IMG/VR virus record: IMGVR_UViG_3300034102_002356
Coordinates: 1 to 31,184 of that record
Strand: one strand, 5' to 3'
DNA: 31,184 nt
DNA from: a virus
Shown here: positions 2,122-31,184 of the stretch, in pieces
How the letters are laid out: the number at the start of each line of letters is the position of its first letter
Numbering within the stretch: position 1 is the first letter of the stretch
Translations under genes and position numbers: made by a program
The notes under the pieces: model-generated
Databases searched by the model: none
Told to the model about the DNA's origin: nothing
The model's input: the letters and a program-made list of their open reading frames with translations, nothing else

Positions 2122-2126
2122 CAAAA

Positions 2127-2134
2127 TATTTATA
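2127..2134 (-). promoter_or_regulatory. Late promoter box, start codon at +1 (gp25-like)
   Basis: TATAAATA on the minus strand matches the T4 late consensus exactly and is followed by TTTTG and ATG. T4 late transcripts begin about 5-6 nt past the box, so the mRNA from this site would be leaderless or nearly so. The box lies inside the end of the upstream hub gene. Confidence 0.65.
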
Positions 2135-24910: not shown

Positions 24911-25941
24911 ATTTCGTGATTCTCAAAAATGTTGTTAATAGTGCGATTGACTTTTATTAGTGTACCACAGGTGTACAGAGAAGGCAAGTCAAAAGCGCCA
25001 ACATAAGAACAAGCCGAGCGAATTCCACCAAAAATTTCCTGTATCGTATTTCGTACAGATCCGCGATAGGGTACTTCAACTGTTCGTCCTTCCGATGCTC
25101 TATAATCGGAAAGCCCGCCATTGTACTTTTCATTTGCAGTTTTACTGCTCATGCCGTAGTGCAACATTCGGAGCTCTCCATGCTCACCATGTCGTATTTC
25201 GCCACCACATTCATCGTGACCGGCAAATATTCCTCCCGCCATTACAAAGGCAGCGCCAGCCACAAAAGATTTTGCAAAATCTCCGGGGTGTATGATACCG
25301 CCGTCAGCAACGATCCCAATATCGAATGCTTCGGCTGTCTGTGCACACTCTAATACCGCTGATAGCTGTGGATAGCCCACGCCTGCCACACGCCGGGTCA
25401 GACACATCGACCCCGATCCTATTCCCACCTTTACGAGATCTACTCCAACTTTTGACAATTCCTCTACCCCCTCGGGGGTCACGACATTCCCTGCAATCAA
25501 AATAGACTTCGGCCATTTTTCTCTAACCTTTCTTGTAAAATTATGAAACTCGGTCATGTAGCCGTTTGCTACATCTACACAAACAAAAGTGGGGTCAGCA
25601 ATATTTGCCGAATCCACAAACAATTTACTTTCAGAATCCAAACCAAGAGTCAAAGAAACATATTTTTCTTTATCTGGATAACTTGCAACAAAATTTGAAT
25701 AATAACTTCCACCCTTACGAAGACAAGTTACAATTTTATATTCAGACAAAGCGAGGGCCATGTCATACGTTCCAACCGTTGACATGTTTGCTGCCATGAT
25801 GGGAACACCAGACCAAGTAGTTCCGTTTTTGAACGTTTTGGTGACCTCAAGAGAAACTTCTTTTCTTGACTTTACATTGCTTTTTTGAGGAACAATAAGA
25901 ACATCAGAATAATCAAGTTTTGGGTCGGCGTTAACAATCAT
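24907..25941 (-). CDS. guaC: GMP reductase
   Basis: A 344-residue protein, close to the 347 of E. coli GuaC. It catalyses GMP + NADPH -> IMP + NH3. The catalytic loop GIGSGSMCLTRRVAGVGYPQ at residues 173-192 has Cys180. VADGGIIHPGDFAKSFVAGA and the following Gly-rich MAGGIFAGHDE bind the phosphate, and YRGSVRNTIQEIFGGIRSAC is the usual C-terminal part. I use ATG at 25941 (MIVNADPKLDYSDVL) because the family starts near 'LDYSDVLI'. An upstream frame to 25977 lies in the promoter. GC is near 45 percent. Confidence 0.92.
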   Translation of the reverse strand: MIVNADPKLDYSDVLIVPQKSNVKSRKEVSLEVTKTFKNGTTWSGVPIMAANMSTVGTYDMALALSEYKIVTCLRKGGSYYSNFVASYPDKEKYVSLTLGLDSESKLFVDSANIADPTFVCVDVANGYMTEFHNFTRKVREKWPKSILIAGNVVTPEGVEELSKVGVDLVKVGIGSGSMCLTRRVAGVGYPQLSAVLECAQTAEAFDIGIVADGGIIHPGDFAKSFVAGAAFVMAGGIFAGHDECGGEIRHGEHGELRMLHYGMSSKTANEKYNGGLSDYRASEGRTVEVPYRGSVRNTIQEIFGGIRSACSYVGAFDLPSLYTCGTLIKVNRTINNIFENHEI

Positions 25942-27208: not shown

Positions 27209-27216
27209 AATAAATA
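27209..27216 (+). promoter_or_regulatory. Possible late promoter box, start codon at +1
   Basis: AATAAATA, then ATTTT and ATG at 27222, with 5 nt between as for gp25-like and gp4. Confidence 0.45.
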
Positions 27217-27221
27217 ATTTT

Positions 27222-27767
27222 ATGCTTTCATTTAAACAATTTTTAACAGAAACCTCGCAGGGGTCTTCTATTCCTCTTGTATTGGATGATCCCGATTTTG
27301 CAAAAGTTTCTTCAAATAAAGGAAATTGGGCAAAAAAATTTATTAAAAGCAATGTCGCAGACCTCGCGGGATCATTAGTTGGAAATTATGTAGTAAAGCC
27401 AACAGCAGAAAAAATTGGATTTTTCGAACCTTTTGAGTCTGGTGGAACAGTTCATAAAATTTTATCAAATTCTCCTGAATGGGTTACAAACACTACAGAA
27501 AAGGCATTAGATTTAACTCAAACCGGACTTGGATTAGTATTGGATCCAATTCAAACTGCTGGAAACTTTATAGCCAAAAAAATTGAAGATTCTGGAAATA
27601 AAAAATTACAATCAATAAGACACACAGATCCTGCCAGCAAATCAGATTATGAAAAGGCAGCAAAAGAGGCAGAACAAAGAAGAAAAGCAAGAGGAATAAA
27701 AACACCAGAAGAGTTATCAACAGAACAGTCCTCAAATCCAGAACCATACAGAATGAGGGCTGGATAA
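27222..27767 (+). CDS. Putative internal head protein with capsid-targeting sequence
   Basis: A 181-residue protein. The N-terminus MLSFKQFLTETSQ is nearly that of the muramidase-like gene (MKSFKEYLTEQ) and like the T4 internal-protein targeting peptide. LTE at residues 8-10 fits the gp21-type cleavage rule. The mature part has a region with Gly/Ala pattern (NVADLAGSLVGNYVVKPTAE, GLGLVLDPIQTAGNFI) that could be membrane-active, and a highly charged C-terminus. The product may be ejected with DNA. No family is recognised beyond the N-terminal peptide. Confidence 0.6.
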   Translation: MLSFKQFLTETSQGSSIPLVLDDPDFAKVSSNKGNWAKKFIKSNVADLAGSLVGNYVVKPTAEKIGFFEPFESGGTVHKILSNSPEWVTNTTEKALDLTQTGLGLVLDPIQTAGNFIAKKIEDSGNKKLQSIRHTDPASKSDYEKAAKEAEQRRKARGIKTPEELSTEQSSNPEPYRMRAG

Positions 27768-27776
27768 AAAAAAATT

Positions 27777-27784
27777 TATAAATA
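27777..27784 (+). promoter_or_regulatory. Late promoter box, start codon at +1
   Basis: Perfect TATAAATA, then TTTTC and ATG at 27790. No Shine-Dalgarno lies between box and ATG. Confidence 0.65.
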
Positions 27785-27789
27785 TTTTC

Positions 27790-28296
27790 ATGCAATATTT
27801 AACAAATTATTATAAAAATTTATCGGAACAACTTCAAGAGAGAATCAACATTCTTGAAAAATATCTTGCAGAAGTAAAAGTGACTAAGGTAGTCGATGGA
27901 GTGACAGTAAAATGGGATCCTAGCAAGGAATCAGAAAAAGAAGCTACTGAACGTGCACTTAATACTGATCCAAGAGCAAGTGCTCTAGCAAAAGATCCCT
28001 TTGACCGAAGTGAATGGGATAAAGAAGTAGATAAAATTGAAAATGACATGTTGCGAAAGAGACGAGATCTGACGCTAAATTCCATGAGAGTAGCAGCAAA
28101 TACTGTTGAATATGATCGAAATGCTCCAGGGGAATCATTAAATAGAAATAGTATCTCCCTTCAAGCAGAAAGAAGAAGAGAAGCAGAAGAACGGAACGAG
28201 CGAGAATTGCGCGATTCCCCTTATTACAAGCCAAAACAACAGCCAAAACCGGGTGAACCGGGATATCAGGGCCCTTCGGCTGGAAGAAAACAATAA
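27790..28296 (+). CDS. Charged coiled-coil protein, possible head-internal protein
   Basis: A 168-residue protein of very high charge with long helices (LQERINILEKYLAEVKVTK, RSEWDKEVDKIENDMLRKRR) and a C-terminal Pro/Lys/Gly tail (KPKQQPKPGEPGYQGP). The first 15 residues (MQYLTNYYKNLSEQL) have an LSE that could be a prohead-protease site, as in the two proteins with clearer targeting peptides, but this match is weaker. It follows the 181-residue gene and is itself followed by a terminator. Function is unknown. Confidence 0.6.
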   Translation: MQYLTNYYKNLSEQLQERINILEKYLAEVKVTKVVDGVTVKWDPSKESEKEATERALNTDPRASALAKDPFDRSEWDKEVDKIENDMLRKRRDLTLNSMRVAANTVEYDRNAPGESLNRNSISLQAERRREAEERNERELRDSPYYKPKQQPKPGEPGYQGPSAGRKQ

Positions 28297-28323
28297 AATA
28301 AATTAAAATTTTTCAGTGAACCT

Positions 28324-28355
28324 TTTCCGGCTCTTTTGGGGCCGGAAATTTTTTT
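28324..28355 (+). terminator. Intrinsic terminator
   Basis: TTTCCGGC (28324-28331), 9-nt loop, GCCGGAAA (28341-28348), then seven T. It ends the operon of the two internal-protein-like genes and marks the boundary to the GC-rich block. Confidence 0.9.
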
Positions 28356-28533
28356 AGCCATCCCATGGTTTTTGAGAATTGGGGTTAGGGGGGTGGGGGT
28401 ACTGGACGGGATCAAAATTATTTGAGAAAATTAAAGAGGTATGAGAGAATTGAGGGGGTGGAGAGCTAGCCCGCCCAAATATTAATATTTCTTAGGGGAC
28501 CCATTTTACTGTTTGGACACGACCACCAAGGAG

Positions 28534-28563
28534 ATTCTACCATGACCCCTAGCGGGTTGTCAA
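28534..28563 (-). promoter_or_regulatory. Sigma70 promoter facing a gene-free stretch
   Basis: TTGACA at 28558-28563, TAGAAT at 28534-28539, 18-bp spacer, then CTCCTTGG. This -10 and start region copies the TAGAATCTACTTGG shared by other promoters of the block. The transcript would run left into 28520-28356. Confidence 0.75.
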
Positions 28564-28578
28564 GTTCCGATAATGGCA

Positions 28579-28600
28579 CAACCCCCCTTTCGGGGGGTTG
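28579..28600. terminator. Terminator-like hairpin
   Basis: CAACCCCCC, loop TTTC, GGGGGGTTG, a perfect 9-bp stem. It lies 22 nt past the stop of the minus-strand gene at 28622 and just before the next -35 (28558-28563). A T-run is lacking on the minus side. Confidence 0.65.
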
Positions 28601-28621
28601 CTGTTTTCCGATCCTCCTTTT

Positions 28622-28897
28622 TTACTTGGTCGCCAATTCCATCAGGGCGGCGAAGTCTGTGTCGCTGATGCGGAGCAGCCCCTGCTGCTCCATCCAGAGG
28701 ACGTACTGGGCGTAAACCTTGACCTTGTTGCCCTTAAAGCCGAGTTCGCGCTTGATGATCGTGTAGCAGGTCGGAGCCTTGCTCGTCAGGCGAATCTTGT
28801 GCATGATCTCGCCCTCCAAGCCGATGCGGAGAGTGTGGGCGCGGAGCGCGTTGATCTGGGCGGGGGTGGAGAGAACGATGGAGGAGTTGGTGCTCAT
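28622..28897 (-). CDS. Small conserved-type protein, leaderless
   Basis: A 91-residue protein: a short polar start (MSTNSSIVLSTPAQINALRA), then TLRIGLEGEIMHKIRL, APTCYTIIKRELGFKGNKVK and a final YAQYVLWMEQQGL helix. The layout 'lR..tLr..LegEi....ltskaptcy.iIKrelGfkGnK....aqyv' looks like a known small phage family, but I cannot name a function. ATG at 28897 is fixed by the promoter: TACAAT ends exactly 6 nt before it. An upstream in-frame ATG lies before the promoter. GC is near 56 percent. Confidence 0.7.
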   Translation of the reverse strand: MSTNSSIVLSTPAQINALRAHTLRIGLEGEIMHKIRLTSKAPTCYTIIKRELGFKGNKVKVYAQYVLWMEQQGLLRISDTDFAALMELATK

Positions 28898-28903
28898 GCG
28901 TAC

Positions 28904-28933
28904 ATTGTAACACAACCCACCCTCCCATGTCAA
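28904..28933 (-). promoter_or_regulatory. Sigma70 promoter, ATG at +1 (91-aa gene)
   Basis: TTGACA at 28928-28933, TACAAT at 28904-28909, 18-bp spacer, then 6 nt and ATG at 28897. No room for a Shine-Dalgarno. Confidence 0.85.
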
Positions 28934-28947
28934 GGGGTGGAACGATA

Positions 28948-28958
28948 AGTCCGATAAC
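28948..28958 (+). repeat. AGTCCGATAAC element, copy 1
   Basis: AGTCCGATAAC lies 7 bp before the -35 at 28966 and between two divergent promoters. See copies at 29776, 29856 and 31138 (minus). Confidence 0.7.
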
Positions 28959-28965
28959 ACCTCGC

Positions 28966-28994
28966 TTGACAACAAAGACACCTTGTGGTACAAT
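28966..28994 (+). promoter_or_regulatory. Sigma70 promoter without an obvious gene
   Basis: TTGACA at 28966-28971, TACAAT at 28989-28994, 17-bp spacer, then ATACTTGG. A hairpin stands about 45 nt past the predicted start, so a transcript of about 60 nt or an antisense RNA to the gene at 29066 is expected. Confidence 0.8.
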
Positions 28995-29040
28995 ATACTT
29001 GGTCGCTCTTAAAAATTTCAAATTTCAAAGAAACAAAGAA

Positions 29041-29056
29041 GCCCCCTTTCGGGGGC
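29041..29056. terminator. Terminator of the 72-aa gene (and end of a short plus transcript)
   Basis: GCCCCC, loop, GGGGGC. On the minus strand the stem is followed by TTCTTTGTTTCTTTG, so it ends the gene at 29066. On the plus strand it meets the transcript from the promoter at 28966. Confidence 0.75.
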
Positions 29057-29065
29057 CGGGAGGGT

Positions 29066-29284
29066 TTAGCCCTCCGCGTGTTGGTCCCAGTAGAGCGCGT
29101 GGTCCTCGTCGGCCTCGTAGCCCCATTCCTCCAATGCCTCAATTTCCTCCTCGCGGCGAGCCTCGCGCTCGCGCGCCTGCTCCTCCTCGCAAAACGGGCA
29201 GAGGCTGTCCGTGTAGGCATACTCGGCGCGGTGGCAGAAGCAGGGGAAGTGTTCGTCTTCGTGGTTGTGGGTGGTGTTGCACAT
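29066..29284 (-). CDS. Small zinc-finger-like acidic protein, leaderless
   Basis: A 72-residue protein. N-terminal Cys and His residues (C2, H6, H12, C15, C17, H18) and C29PFC32 could bind zinc. The second half is a strongly acidic helix (EEEQAREREARREEEIEALE) and ends WDQHAEG. No family is known to me. ATG at 29284 is set by TAGAAT ending 6 nt upstream. A second promoter (29367-29395) lies farther upstream and would add a leader of about 75 nt. Small acidic zinc proteins in phage early regions often bind host factors (inference). Confidence 0.65.
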   Translation of the reverse strand: MCNTTHNHEDEHFPCFCHRAEYAYTDSLCPFCEEEQAREREARREEEIEALEEWGYEADEDHALYWDQHAEG

Positions 29285-29290
29285 GATGCC

Positions 29291-29319
29291 ATTCTAGCAT
29301 ACCGGGGCGGAGTTGTCAA
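29291..29319 (-). promoter_or_regulatory. Sigma70 promoter, ATG at +1 (72-aa gene)
   Basis: TTGACA at 29314-29319, TAGAAT at 29291-29296, 17-bp spacer, then 6 nt and ATG at 29284. Confidence 0.85.
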
Positions 29320-29366
29320 GAGCCTATTCCCGCGATTTACATATAAAGGCAAAGCCCACCAAGTAG

Positions 29367-29395
29367 ATTCTACCACGATGTTCTCAAAATGTCAA
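29367..29395 (-). promoter_or_regulatory. Sigma70 promoter, upstream of the 72-aa gene
   Basis: TTGACA at 29390-29395, TAGAAT at 29367-29372, 17-bp spacer, then CTACTTGG. The first two bases of the -35 are the last two of the hairpin at 29394-29424. Confidence 0.85.
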
Positions 29396-29424
29396 CCCCC
29401 ACCCCCCGAAGGGGGGTGGGGGTT
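29394..29424 (-). terminator. Strong hairpin terminator fused to the next -35
   Basis: A perfect 14-bp stem with a 3-nt GAA (plus) / TTC (minus) loop, C5-A-C6 on one arm. It lies 12 nt after the stop of the 96-aa gene at 29436. On the minus strand the T's that end the stem begin TTGACA of the next promoter. Confidence 0.8.
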
Positions 29425-29435
29425 CTGTCGGGCTG

Positions 29436-29726
29436 TTAGGCCCGGTTCGGGTTTACTACGATTGCTTCGATCCGTTCGATTCGTTCGGTCTTGCAGGACC
29501 GCCAATCTTGCGCGGTGAGATCCCAGTAGGAGATCATGTTCTCCGGCATCCGGCGGGTTCCCTTCGGGATGTTCGCGCTCGGAATCAACTGGTCATCGTT
29601 GGTTCCCAACGCGATCCGCAGAGAGCCATCCATCTTGCGATAGACGAATCGAACGATGCCCACGGCCATTGCCGCGCGGAGGTTTGAGGCGAGAGGGTAG
29701 GAGGAAACGGTGGTGGTGAGTGTCAT
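29436..29726 (-). CDS. WYL_2/Sm-like SH3-barrel protein, leaderless
   Basis: A 96-residue single-domain protein: GIVRFVYRKMDGSLRIALGT, then PKGTRRMPENMISYWDLTAQ and DWRSCKTERIERIEAIV. The pattern 'VrF.YRK.DGS.R.A.GT...........yfDl....WRsfk...i..i' is that of the small WYL_2 family (Sm-like barrel). The residue after WRS, usually Phe, is Cys here. A second copy is the C-terminal domain of the gene at 26164. ATG at 29726 lies exactly 6 nt after TATACT. Molecular role unknown. Confidence 0.8.
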   Translation of the reverse strand: MTLTTTVSSYPLASNLRAAMAVGIVRFVYRKMDGSLRIALGTNDDQLIPSANIPKGTRRMPENMISYWDLTAQDWRSCKTERIERIEAIVVNPNRA

Positions 29727-29732
29727 GCCCGC

Positions 29733-29761
29733 AGTATAGCAGACGACTCCAAAGGTGTCAA
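29733..29761 (-). promoter_or_regulatory. Sigma70 promoter, ATG at +1 (WYL_2 gene)
   Basis: TTGACA at 29756-29761, TATACT at 29733-29738, 17-bp spacer, then 6 nt and ATG at 29726. Confidence 0.85.
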
Positions 29762-29775
29762 GTCACCACATGGCA

Positions 29776-29786
29776 AGTCCGATAAC
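29776..29786 (+). repeat. AGTCCGATAAC element, copy 2
   Basis: AGTCCGATAAC, again 7 bp before a -35 (29794). The whole 50-bp promoter unit is nearly the same as that at 28948-28998. Confidence 0.7.
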
Positions 29787-29793
29787 ACTCGGC

Positions 29794-29822
29794 TTGACAA
29801 CGGAGACACCTTGAGGTACAAT
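29794..29822 (+). promoter_or_regulatory. Sigma70 promoter, distal, for the 130-aa gene
   Basis: TTGACA at 29794-29799, TACAAT at 29817-29822, 17-bp spacer, then CTACTTGG. It is followed 62 bp later by a second promoter in the same direction. Confidence 0.8.
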
Positions 29823-29855
29823 CTACTTGGTGAAATAAAATAAAAACAGGGGGAA

Positions 29856-29866
29856 AGTCCGATAAC
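29856..29866 (+). repeat. AGTCCGATAAC element, copy 3
   Basis: AGTCCGATAAC, 18 bp before the -35 at 29885. The spacing is 11 bp (about one helix turn) more than in copies 1 and 2. Confidence 0.65.
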
Positions 29867-29884
29867 GCAATGTTGCATGGGGGC

Positions 29885-29913
29885 TTGACACCATCGGCAG
29901 CGTGTGGTAAGAT
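29885..29913 (+). promoter_or_regulatory. Sigma70 promoter, proximal, for the 130-aa gene
   Basis: TTGACA at 29885-29890, TAAGAT at 29908-29913, 17-bp spacer. The leader of about 45 nt has GGCCGAGTGGCC, a small hairpin, and GGAGA as Shine-Dalgarno before ATG at 29965. Confidence 0.75.
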
Positions 29914-29964
29914 TGGCGCATCGGGCCGAGTGGCCCATTCAACACCCTCTACGGAGACAGTCAG

Positions 29965-30357
29965 ATGAACAGCACCACCCAGTTCCTCCCCGGCTTTGAG
30001 TCCCTGATGATGGCCGATCCCCACCCATCCAACACGGCGAACACCCACTCTCCCCGTGGCCTCGGCGGCAAGCGCGGCGTTCGCTATTCGGCGTCCACCG
30101 AACAGATCGCAGGATCGAACTACGTTCACCGCGAGTTCCGCGCTGCGGTCTGGGCGCTCACCTCCGGCGACCGTTGCGTGTCGGTGAAGGTGCAGGCCGA
30201 TGCTTCGGACAGGATCGGCTACCACTTCGGATCCATGCTCGTCCGATCCGTCGATGGCAACTACGTTTCCATCGGCATGGACGCAGAGCAGATGCGTTCG
30301 GTCGCCGCTGCCCTCCTCGCCGCCGCCAACTCCTGCGGAGCCAAGTGGCGCAAGTAA
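29965..30357 (+). CDS. Hypothetical protein, 130 aa
   Basis: GC-rich gene with a leader and GGAGA before ATG, unlike its leaderless neighbours. The N-terminal 45 residues are polar and loose (SNTANTHSPRGLGGKRGVRY). The rest is a compact alpha/beta domain: HREFRAAVWALTSGDRCVSV, YHFGSMLVRSVDGNYVSIGM, then an Ala-rich helix AEQMRSVAAALLAAAN. I recognise no family. Two tandem promoters suggest high expression early in infection. It ends in a strong hairpin terminator that abuts the next promoter. Confidence 0.65.
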   Translation: MNSTTQFLPGFESLMMADPHPSNTANTHSPRGLGGKRGVRYSASTEQIAGSNYVHREFRAAVWALTSGDRCVSVKVQADASDRIGYHFGSMLVRSVDGNYVSIGMDAEQMRSVAAALLAAANSCGAKWRK

Positions 30358-30367
30358 GAACGGGATG

Positions 30368-30392
30368 GGGGAGGGGCTAACTGCCCCTCCCC
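30368..30392 (+). terminator. Hairpin terminator abutting the next -35
   Basis: GGGGAGGGGC, loop TAACT, GCCCCTCCCC: a perfect 10-bp stem, 10 nt past the stop codon. The next base (30393) begins TTGACT of the following promoter, so no T-run other than TT. Confidence 0.75.
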
Positions 30393-30422
30393 TTGACTTC
30401 CCGCACCCCTAGCAGGTACAAT
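30393..30422 (+). promoter_or_regulatory. Sigma70 promoter, ATG at +1 (63-aa gene)
   Basis: TTGACT at 30393-30398, TACAAT at 30417-30422, 18-bp spacer, then ACACCC and ATG at 30429. Near copy of the promoter at 30622-30650. Confidence 0.85.
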
Positions 30423-30428
30423 ACACCC

Positions 30429-30620
30429 ATGAACACGCTCTTCCCCGTCCTTCGCATCGGTTCGATCCTCAACGCCATTGCCGCTGGCATCTTCGGAGTA
30501 TGGATGGCTTTCAACGGAGACACCTATGGCAGCGTCTTCTGCCTTGTGATGGGAGCCATCTCCATCGTCCTCTCGCTGTTTGCCAATAAGTGCCAGAAAG
30601 AATATTTCTCCACTCGTTGA
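30429..30620 (+). CDS. Small membrane protein, two TM segments, leaderless
   Basis: A 63-residue protein with two hydrophobic helices: about residues 12-27 (ILNAIAAGIFGVWMAF) and 34-52 (GSVFCLVMGAISIVLSLFA), joined by a short acidic/Gly loop (NGDTYG), and a charged C-terminus (NKCQKEYFSTR). It is likely an inner-membrane protein. Superinfection exclusion or a lysis function are options but unproven. ATG at 30429 lies 6 nt after TACAAT. A longer frame from 30393 would begin at the -35. The stop codon TGA is followed by only one base before the next -35. Confidence 0.7.
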   Translation: MNTLFPVLRIGSILNAIAAGIFGVWMAFNGDTYGSVFCLVMGAISIVLSLFANKCQKEYFSTR

Positions 30621-30621
30621 C

Positions 30622-30650
30622 TTGACTTCCCGCACCACCTACGGTACAAT
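30622..30650 (+). promoter_or_regulatory. Sigma70 promoter, ATG at +1 (95-aa gene)
   Basis: TTGACT at 30622-30627, TACAAT at 30645-30650, 17-bp spacer, then ACACCC and ATG at 30657. It begins 1 bp after the stop of the preceding gene. Confidence 0.85.
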
Positions 30651-30656
30651 ACACCC

Positions 30657-30944
30657 ATGAATCGCACCACCGTTGCAGACCTCGTCCTTTCCGTTCGCCA
30701 CCTGAACTCGGCTATGGGATTCTCCGATGATGCCGCAGCAGCCATCGGCGTGAACTCCGCTCCCGGTTCCTACTTCTTGCAGGGAGCCTACGGAGGCTGG
30801 CAACTTCAGCGCGTCCACCCGATGGGTGGGTGCGAGTCCGTGACCTCGGGCTACCGCAGCAAGCGGGAACTGAACGAACTGGTGAACGCGATCCGCTACG
30901 GCGTATTGGAGGGGACGGTACGCATGACCGGGCTAACGATCTAA
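30657..30944 (+). CDS. Hypothetical protein, 95 aa, leaderless
   Basis: Small GC-rich gene. A helix (TTVADLVLSVRHLNSAMGF) is followed by a beta part SYFLQGAYGGWQLQRVHPMG and a last helix with SKRELNELVNAIRYGVLEG. The 'GaYGGW.L.r......v..GY.SKREL.e.i.ai' pattern looks like a small conserved phage family of unknown role. The start is set by TACAAT 6 nt before ATG. A terminator hairpin follows at 30982. Confidence 0.7.
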   Translation: MNRTTVADLVLSVRHLNSAMGFSDDAAAAIGVNSAPGSYFLQGAYGGWQLQRVHPMGGCESVTSGYRSKRELNELVNAIRYGVLEGTVRMTGLTI

Positions 30945-30981
30945 CGAGGTGGTGCTCGTCAACCGAAAAGGCTAACGCCCT

Positions 30982-31011
30982 GCCCCGGAAGTTCCGGGGC
31001 TAGGTTTTTTT
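30982..31011 (+). terminator. Intrinsic terminator
   Basis: GCCCCGGAA, 1-nt loop (effectively a longer loop at the tip), TTCCGGGGC, then TAGG and seven T. It ends the 95-aa gene. Confidence 0.9.
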
Positions 31012-31019
31012 ATTGGCAC

Positions 31020-31048
31020 TTGACATCGGACGGGATCTGTGATAGAAT
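31020..31048 (+). promoter_or_regulatory. Sigma70 promoter, convergent with the next
   Basis: TTGACA at 31020-31025, TAGAAT at 31043-31048, 17-bp spacer, then CTACTTGG. It faces the minus promoter at 31103-31132. Confidence 0.8.
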
Positions 31049-31102
31049 CTACTTGGTGTTCAAGTATAATAACGATTCTTTTTTCACTTGGGGACCAAGT
31101 AG

Positions 31103-31132
31103 ATTCTACCATACCACCCTCCACATTGTCAA
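31103..31132 (-). promoter_or_regulatory. Sigma70 promoter, convergent with the previous
   Basis: TTGACA at 31127-31132, TAGAAT at 31103-31108, 18-bp spacer, then CTACTTGG. No gene is seen on the minus strand until 29726, so its product may be a short RNA. Confidence 0.8.
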
Positions 31133-31137
31133 GTGGG

Positions 31138-31148
31138 GATATCGGACT
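31138..31148 (-). repeat. AGTCCGATATC element, copy 4
   Basis: AGTCCGATATC on the minus strand (one change from AGTCCGATAAC), 5 bp before the -35 at 31127-31132. Confidence 0.6.
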
Positions 31149-31175
31149 CTGTATGATTTTATTTCTTGCGAGTAC

Positions 31176-31181
31176 TTGACA
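31176..31181 (+). promoter_or_regulatory. Likely -35 of a promoter cut by the right edge
   Basis: TTGACA followed by CCC at the window end. The -10 lies outside. It follows the style of the other promoters of this block, but only the -35 can be seen. Confidence 0.4.
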
Positions 31182-31184
31182 CCC

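Follow-up and report, generated by a model that had tools for sequence, protein, structure and literature searches.

Several systems are known in which messages begin with their own start codon. The cI message that phage lambda transcribes from PRM is leaderless (PMC4965119), and in the lambda sequence the −10 box TAGATT is followed by TAACGT and then by ATG, a spacing of 6 nt. Thermus phage phiYS40 produces leaderless middle and late mRNAs, and host IF2 and IF3 levels are shifted in infection (PMC3594737). TA-led or −10-adjacent leaderless genes occur in Actinobacteria and Deinococcus-Thermus (PMC3160421, PMC12340547). According to a review, leaderless translation is enhanced by CA repeats after the start codon and inhibited by structure around the start (PMC9031893). 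Here we analyse a fragment of a phage genome, IMG/VR record IMGVR_UViG_3300034102_002356 (31,184 bp; “the window” denotes this whole stretch), in which five small genes have a near-consensus promoter exactly 6 nt before their ATG. Very probably these are leaderless early genes expressed from sigma-70 promoters fused to the start codon, and the same rule apparently extends to late genes.

Distance from promoter to start codon

The five window sites all fit TTGAC(A/T)-N17/18-TANNNT-N6-ATG, with TTGACA as −35 box in three and TTGACT in two, and all are present exactly as a sequence-only reading of this DNA had given them. Every TTGAC(A/T)-N16-18-TANNNT in nine phage records was collected and the ATG offset after the −10 box was scored. 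Among the 184 promoters, ATG stood at offset 6 in 101, at offset 7 in 8, at offset 5 in 2 and at offset 4 in none, with about 2 per other offset; one GTG and one TTG were found at offset 6. When window positions 28301-31184 were dinucleotide-shuffled 1000 times, promoters averaged 0.06 against 13 observed, and the promoter-N6-ATG arrangement never appeared against 5 observed; the pattern read backwards had no match in the window record. The comparison of this distance in relatives with random expectation, which the sequence-only reading had suggested as a check, thus yields a sharp peak at 6 nt.

The closest relatives in the viral_contigs collection are G001 (IMGVR_UViG_3300044627_004278, retrieved by protein) and G002 (IMGVR_UViG_3300042453_003743, 137 kb, retrieved via a different promoter motif). 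Records from G004 onward were retrieved by the fused pattern itself, and their counts are therefore biased to records with at least one site, while those of G001 and G002 are unaffected. Whole records contain 5 (window, G000), 10 (G001), 18 (G002), 21 (G004), 13 (G005), 10 (G006), 9 (G007), 16 (G008), 23 (G010), 16 (G019), 9 (G020) and 23 (G021) sites, compared with 0-1 for the reversed control pattern. Each of 16 named phage records (P-SSM4, HTVC008M, S-SRM01, S-SKS1, DLP6, S-8S53, DSL-LC03, AG-345-L05, T4, S-PM2, C48C1, S-P4 and four actinophages) contains 0-3. Across viral_contigs, the 6-nt pattern with ~1.5 extra bases specified was found in 89 stretches and a control with the ATG shifted by three in 32; a looser 6-nt pattern gave at least 120 matches. 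At least 10 records, from uncultivated T4-like phages and others, hence carry the design at 5-23 sites each. The view that it is rare as a systematic phage design has to be corrected accordingly, also in the light of phiYS40 (PMC3594737), and the notion that it serves very small modules was too narrow: in G002 it also fronts genes of 423 amino acids (aa), a CobS homologue, and 746 aa, and it apparently extends to late genes. G010 (L228, L310) is apparently a different phage with its own discriminator, CCGCNC-ATG, and the design may have arisen or spread outside this lineage.

In the window, promoter A1 (28898-28933, minus strand; 28895-28933 including the ATG) has its −35 box TTGACA at 28933-28928 and, after N18, the −10 box TACAAT at 28909-28904, followed by GTACGC and the ATG at 28897 of gene 1 (28622-28897, 91 aa). 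A homologue of gene 1 in G008 (38% identity) keeps TACAAT-N6-ATG with a poor −35 box. Promoter A2 (29285-29319, minus strand; 29282-29319 with ATG) reads TTGACA-N17-TAGAAT-GGCATC and adjoins the ATG at 29284 of gene 2 (29066-29284), which encodes a Cys/His-rich, possibly zinc-binding protein of 72 aa. Promoter A3 (29727-29761, minus strand; 29724-29761 with ATG), TTGACA-N17-TATACT-GCGGGC, adjoins the ATG at 29726 of gene 3 (29436-29726, 96 aa), a WYL_2 Sm-like SH3 beta-barrel protein (Pfam PF10902, E 4e-18; phrog_1086, E 7e-19). On the plus strand, promoter A4 (30393-30428; 30393-30431 with ATG) reads TTGACT-N18-TACAAT-ACACCC, is directly preceded at its −35 box by a GC-rich hairpin, and adjoins the ATG at 30429 of gene 4 (30429-30620), whose small product of 63 aa is apparently hydrophobic and, by reading its sequence, a putative membrane protein. 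Promoter A5 (30622-30656; 30622-30659 with ATG), TTGACT-N17-TACAAT-ACACCC, is immediately preceded by the final codons of gene 4 and its stop, and adjoins the ATG at 30657 of gene 5 (30657-30944, 95 aa), with homologues in G002 (56% identity) and G005 (38% identity) that both have the 6-nt design. Among the five proteins, only that of gene 3 had a Pfam or a convincing PHROGs match. The remark of the sequence-only reading that guaC comes close to the design also holds, its ATG at 25941 being preceded by a weaker promoter at 8 nt (TTGACC-N16-TACTAT-N8-ATG).

The start codons marked in this way belong to conserved genes. Open frames of at least 35 aa follow 98 of the 101 offset-6 ATGs, whereas among all ATGs of this DNA the share is 34%, and the median frame over all 101 is 85 aa; in one of the three short-frame cases the ATG stands by chance at a tRNA gene (G005, L271:7082). 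When homologues of G000 and G001 proteins were gathered blind to promoters (n = 14), promoter-N6-ATG was kept in 12, down to 31% identity. The exceptions are a G004 homologue that carries the Shine-Dalgarno (SD) sequence GAGGAGG instead and the G008 homologue with the poor −35 box. In pairs below 95% identity most differences fall at third codon positions (1656 vs 1264 and 1068), and the promoter spacers of homologues are only 38% identical. The retained distance, the variable third positions and the divergent spacers together indicate that selection maintains the distance and the protein but not the intervening sequence.

The starts themselves have a distinct composition. SD-like 4-mers precede only 10 of 98 genes, and the base before the ATG is C in 94 of 98; the discriminator consensus is ACACMC. 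Codons 2-8 contain 76% A+C and 10% G, compared with 51% and 29% further in, and the first 40 nt fold with an energy of −1.6 kcal/mol, vs −8.7 kcal/mol inside genes.

Probable leaderless expression and its alternatives

Transcription from sigma-70 promoters starts 6-7 nt after the −10 box. Host sigma-70 RNA polymerase would recognise TTGACA-N17-TANNNT, and with a canonical 6-bp discriminator transcription would start on the A of the ATG, so that this A is +1 and the C before it −1. The resulting message would open with 5'-AUG and an A/C-rich, unstructured 5' end, and its 5'-terminal AUG would be the site of translation initiation, presumably of the leaderless kind that depends on 70S ribosomes or fMet-tRNA. 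If transcription begins at the first letter of the start codon, the message has no leader for ribosome binding. Since the promoter is fused to the ATG, each short gene would carry promoter and start signal in ~40 bp, without need for an SD site, and such expression may, as the sequence-only reading suggested, bypass control of SD-led translation.

A second promoter type leads to the same base. In T4 the first base of the late octamer (TATAAATA, gp55) is numbered −13, and the octamer spans −13 to −6 (PMC2988020). Five bases thus remain before +1, which places +1 on the A of ATGs that stand 5 nt after such a box. In the AT-rich part of the window, T4-type late boxes with their 5 nt adjoin three ATGs: AATAAATA at 27209-27221 (plus strand; gene 27222-27767), TATAAATA at 27777-27789 (plus strand; gene 27790-28296) and TATAAATA at 2122-2134 (minus strand; ATG at 2121, gene 1741-2121, 126 aa), the last being the same in G001 and G002. 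ATAAATA-N5-ATG occurs in 28 cases in G000, G002, G005 and G008, while other spacings from 0 to 15 give 0-7 cases; after filtering for open reading frames, the G records together have 30 late boxes at offset 5. No late box lies at 5 nt in 40 kb of T4, where the distances to ATG are 12-50 nt, and one does in 40 kb of S-PM2. Homologues of the late sigma factor gp55 are encoded by G002 (E 1.7e-18) and G005 (E 1.3e-17). A gp55-type late box 5 bp from the ATG would likewise put +1 on the A in late genes. Two promoter types with different box-to-start distances each reach the ATG where their own transcription should start, and of all arguments for the mechanism this independent agreement weighs most; both temporal classes appear to be leaderless by design.

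Other explanations for the spacing have to be considered. A by-product of genome compaction or chance would be in line with the tight gene packing. Compaction predicts a spread of short distances, however, whereas the peak is one base wide (0, 2, 101 and 8 at offsets 4, 5, 6 and 7), and equally compact named T4-like phages have 0-3 sites. The shape of the peak already refutes this explanation, to which we assign next to no probability. The ATG at +7 might instead belong to a conserved motif of the promoter or of the initially transcribed region, with translation beginning elsewhere. The discriminator does have a consensus of its own, and the tRNA promoter in G005 shows that an ATG can stand at offset 6 by chance; but no ATG stands there in the class B promoters described below or in other tRNA promoters from these regions, nearly all of the ATGs open frames of 35 aa or more, and homologues align from this Met with third codon positions most variable. 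Moreover, actinophage homologues of one such gene, the early gene of the DUF7178 family, are preceded by SD-like sequences without the fused motif. We therefore consider this second explanation highly improbable.

It is also unlikely, in our estimate, that the genes are read mainly from leadered transcripts of farther-upstream promoters (class B promoters or read-through), the fused promoter playing a minor part and unstructured A/C-rich starts serving without an SD. Class B promoters do lie in tandem 75-90 nt upstream of some fused promoters and would add a leadered transcript there, and there is no terminator between genes 4 and 5. Against this, the fused promoters are near consensus and keep their position while the spacers diverge, and for most of the genes there is no co-oriented class B promoter upstream. 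The possible additional leadered transcripts nevertheless count against purely leaderless expression, as do several further points: 8 of the 184 promoters have 7 rather than 6 nt before the ATG; the A/C-rich start is shared by the SD-led gene at 29965 and is not specific; and the late peak is built on a 7-bp motif in AT-rich DNA. Start-site selection can also shift by 1-2 nt, so that leaders of 1-3 nt are possible.

Leaderless expression from fused promoters, as the sequence-only reading had proposed it, gains strong support from sequence statistics, conservation and the lambda cI yardstick; from these data we infer where transcription actually starts, how the messages are translated and whether expression is early or late. 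For a broader proposal we see about even chances, namely that a lineage of T4-like phages runs its host-sigma-70 early and gp55 late programmes through start-codon-fused promoters, with the first gene of most units leaderless and possibly with a phage-imposed switch of the ribosome to 5'-terminal AUG initiation.

Neighbouring promoters and phage lineage

The sequence-only reading overlooked a sixth gene of the cluster and a second class of promoters. The contrasting promoter region at 29885-29964 (plus strand) comprises TTGACA-N17-TAAGAT and a ~45-nt leader with GGAG, which precedes the SD-type gene 29965-30357 (130 aa). As this gene is SD-led from a similar promoter, the region uses both modes. 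Class B promoters have the form TTGACA-N17/18-TASAAT-CTACTTGGT, with the near-palindrome GTAGAWTCTAC over the −10 box and without ATG; a strict pattern finds 5 in G000, 10 in G001 and 8 in G002. In the window one lies at 28966-29005 (plus strand; TTGACA-N17-TACAAT-ATACTTGGT, without ATG) and diverges from A1, and another at 29794-29833 (plus strand) diverges from A3. A third at 29356-29395 (minus strand; TAGAAT-CTACTTGGT) stands in tandem ~76 nt upstream of A2, its −35 box adjoining a hairpin. Further copies are found at 28563 (minus strand) and as a head-to-head pair at 31020-31132, one at 31020 (plus strand) and one at 31132 (minus strand). The ~45 bp between the head-to-head promoters have opposite orientation in the window and in G001 (L173, 18914-19026), as if inverted between CTACTTGG/CCAAGTAG repeats. 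Class B elements could be operator-controlled or small-RNA promoters. We rejected leaderless GTG genes as an explanation (GTG at offset 7 in 18), as the window copies have short or inconsistent frames or no GTG. A repeated element, AGTCCGATA(AC) or TATCGGACT, lies upstream of several promoters in G000, G001 and G002 (in the window at ~28950, ~29770, ~29860 and ~31160) and is a possible regulator site. GC hairpins within 12 nt of the −35 box were seen at 7 of 129 promoters, and we discarded the idea that most units are “promoter plus terminator” cassettes.

Two start regions in other records also deserve mention. In G006 (L221, 2145, minus strand) the frame that begins at one promoter-N6-ATG is 16 codons long and overlaps both an SD (CGGAGGAG) and a second start; it is possibly a 5'-terminal upstream open reading frame. 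In Pelagibacter phage HTVC008M the annotated GTG start of cobS (L444, 505) falls within a TTGACT-N17-TAGGAT promoter, and translation probably begins instead at the ATG located 11 nt downstream of the −10 box.

The window is mostly AT-rich (25-43% GC) and encodes T4-like structural genes and a gp32 homologue; its last ~2.9 kb have a core of 57-61% GC and carry small genes. The early cluster is mostly of 50-62% GC (window 28300-31184; G002, 81-93 kb), compared with 25-45% GC over most of the remaining phage. The gp32-type single-stranded-DNA-binding protein (phrog_224, E 5e-107) has its best phage matches in cyanophages and one Pelagibacter phage. The major capsid protein gp23 lies outside the window fragment and is encoded by G002, G004 and G005; that of G002 is best matched by cyanophage and other T4-like capsids (52-54%). 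No Photo_RC match for psbA, which many cyanophages carry, was found in 7 records, some of them fragments, and two exact scans of genome_contigs with tRNA segments returned no host match. Homologues of the DUF7178 gene are nearly confined to Mycobacterium, Gordonia and Rhodococcus phages, which hints at an actinobacterial host. Leaderless genes are common in actinobacteria. In conflict with this hint, marine Kyanoviridae are indicated by the relatives of the capsid protein and of CobS. G002 also carries a permuted transfer-messenger RNA (L172, 7245-7644; Rfam RF04321, 81.8 bits; tag ANIKAAPMRMAA) and several tRNAs, in some of which a −10 box lies ~8 nt before the tRNA.

Comparison with known systems

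If the leaderless reading is true, leaderless translation would be a design rule in a large environmental phage group rather than an exception, and these phages would provide ~100 naturally occurring leaderless promoter-genes that obey a clear sequence rule. Start-codon annotation would change, since gene callers seek SD sites and therefore misplace starts in these genomes. It would also raise the question whether the phages alter host ribosomes or initiation factors to favour leaderless over host messages.

No report of a fused leaderless design in T4-like phages was found in the literature searched, with many subscription papers lying outside it; the design is apparently not previously described in these phages, phiYS40 being the published precedent for middle and late genes. 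The promoter-early-stem-loop (PeSL) cassettes of T4-like phages, as cited in PMC4503421, resemble our loci in that early promoters and hairpins are densely set between small, variable early genes, and some −35 boxes here adjoin a hairpin. With such a hairpin at so few of the 129 promoters, however, PeSLs were rejected as a full explanation. T4 late promoters share the octamer and gp55, but in the 40 kb of T4 their ATGs lie 12-50 nt downstream, in contrast to the peak at 5 nt. Like phiYS40, the phages studied here would express many genes systematically without leaders; by description, phiYS40 is an unrelated Thermus phage with leaderless middle and late genes, whereas here early host-type and T4-type late promoters are fused. 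With TA-led cellular genes, in which the first T of TANNNT lies ~12 bp upstream of the start codon and an SD is missing, our genes share a TANNNT ending 6-7 nt before the start, a mostly absent SD and conserved protein frames. Those genes are cellular, and in Deinococcus the −10 box works without a −35 box; ours are viral with a near-perfect TTGACA. Lambda PRM-cI offers the same order of −10 box, 6 nt and ATG and the same A-rich second codons, but in a single repressor gene, whereas here near-consensus promoters of this kind stand on most genes of an early cluster.

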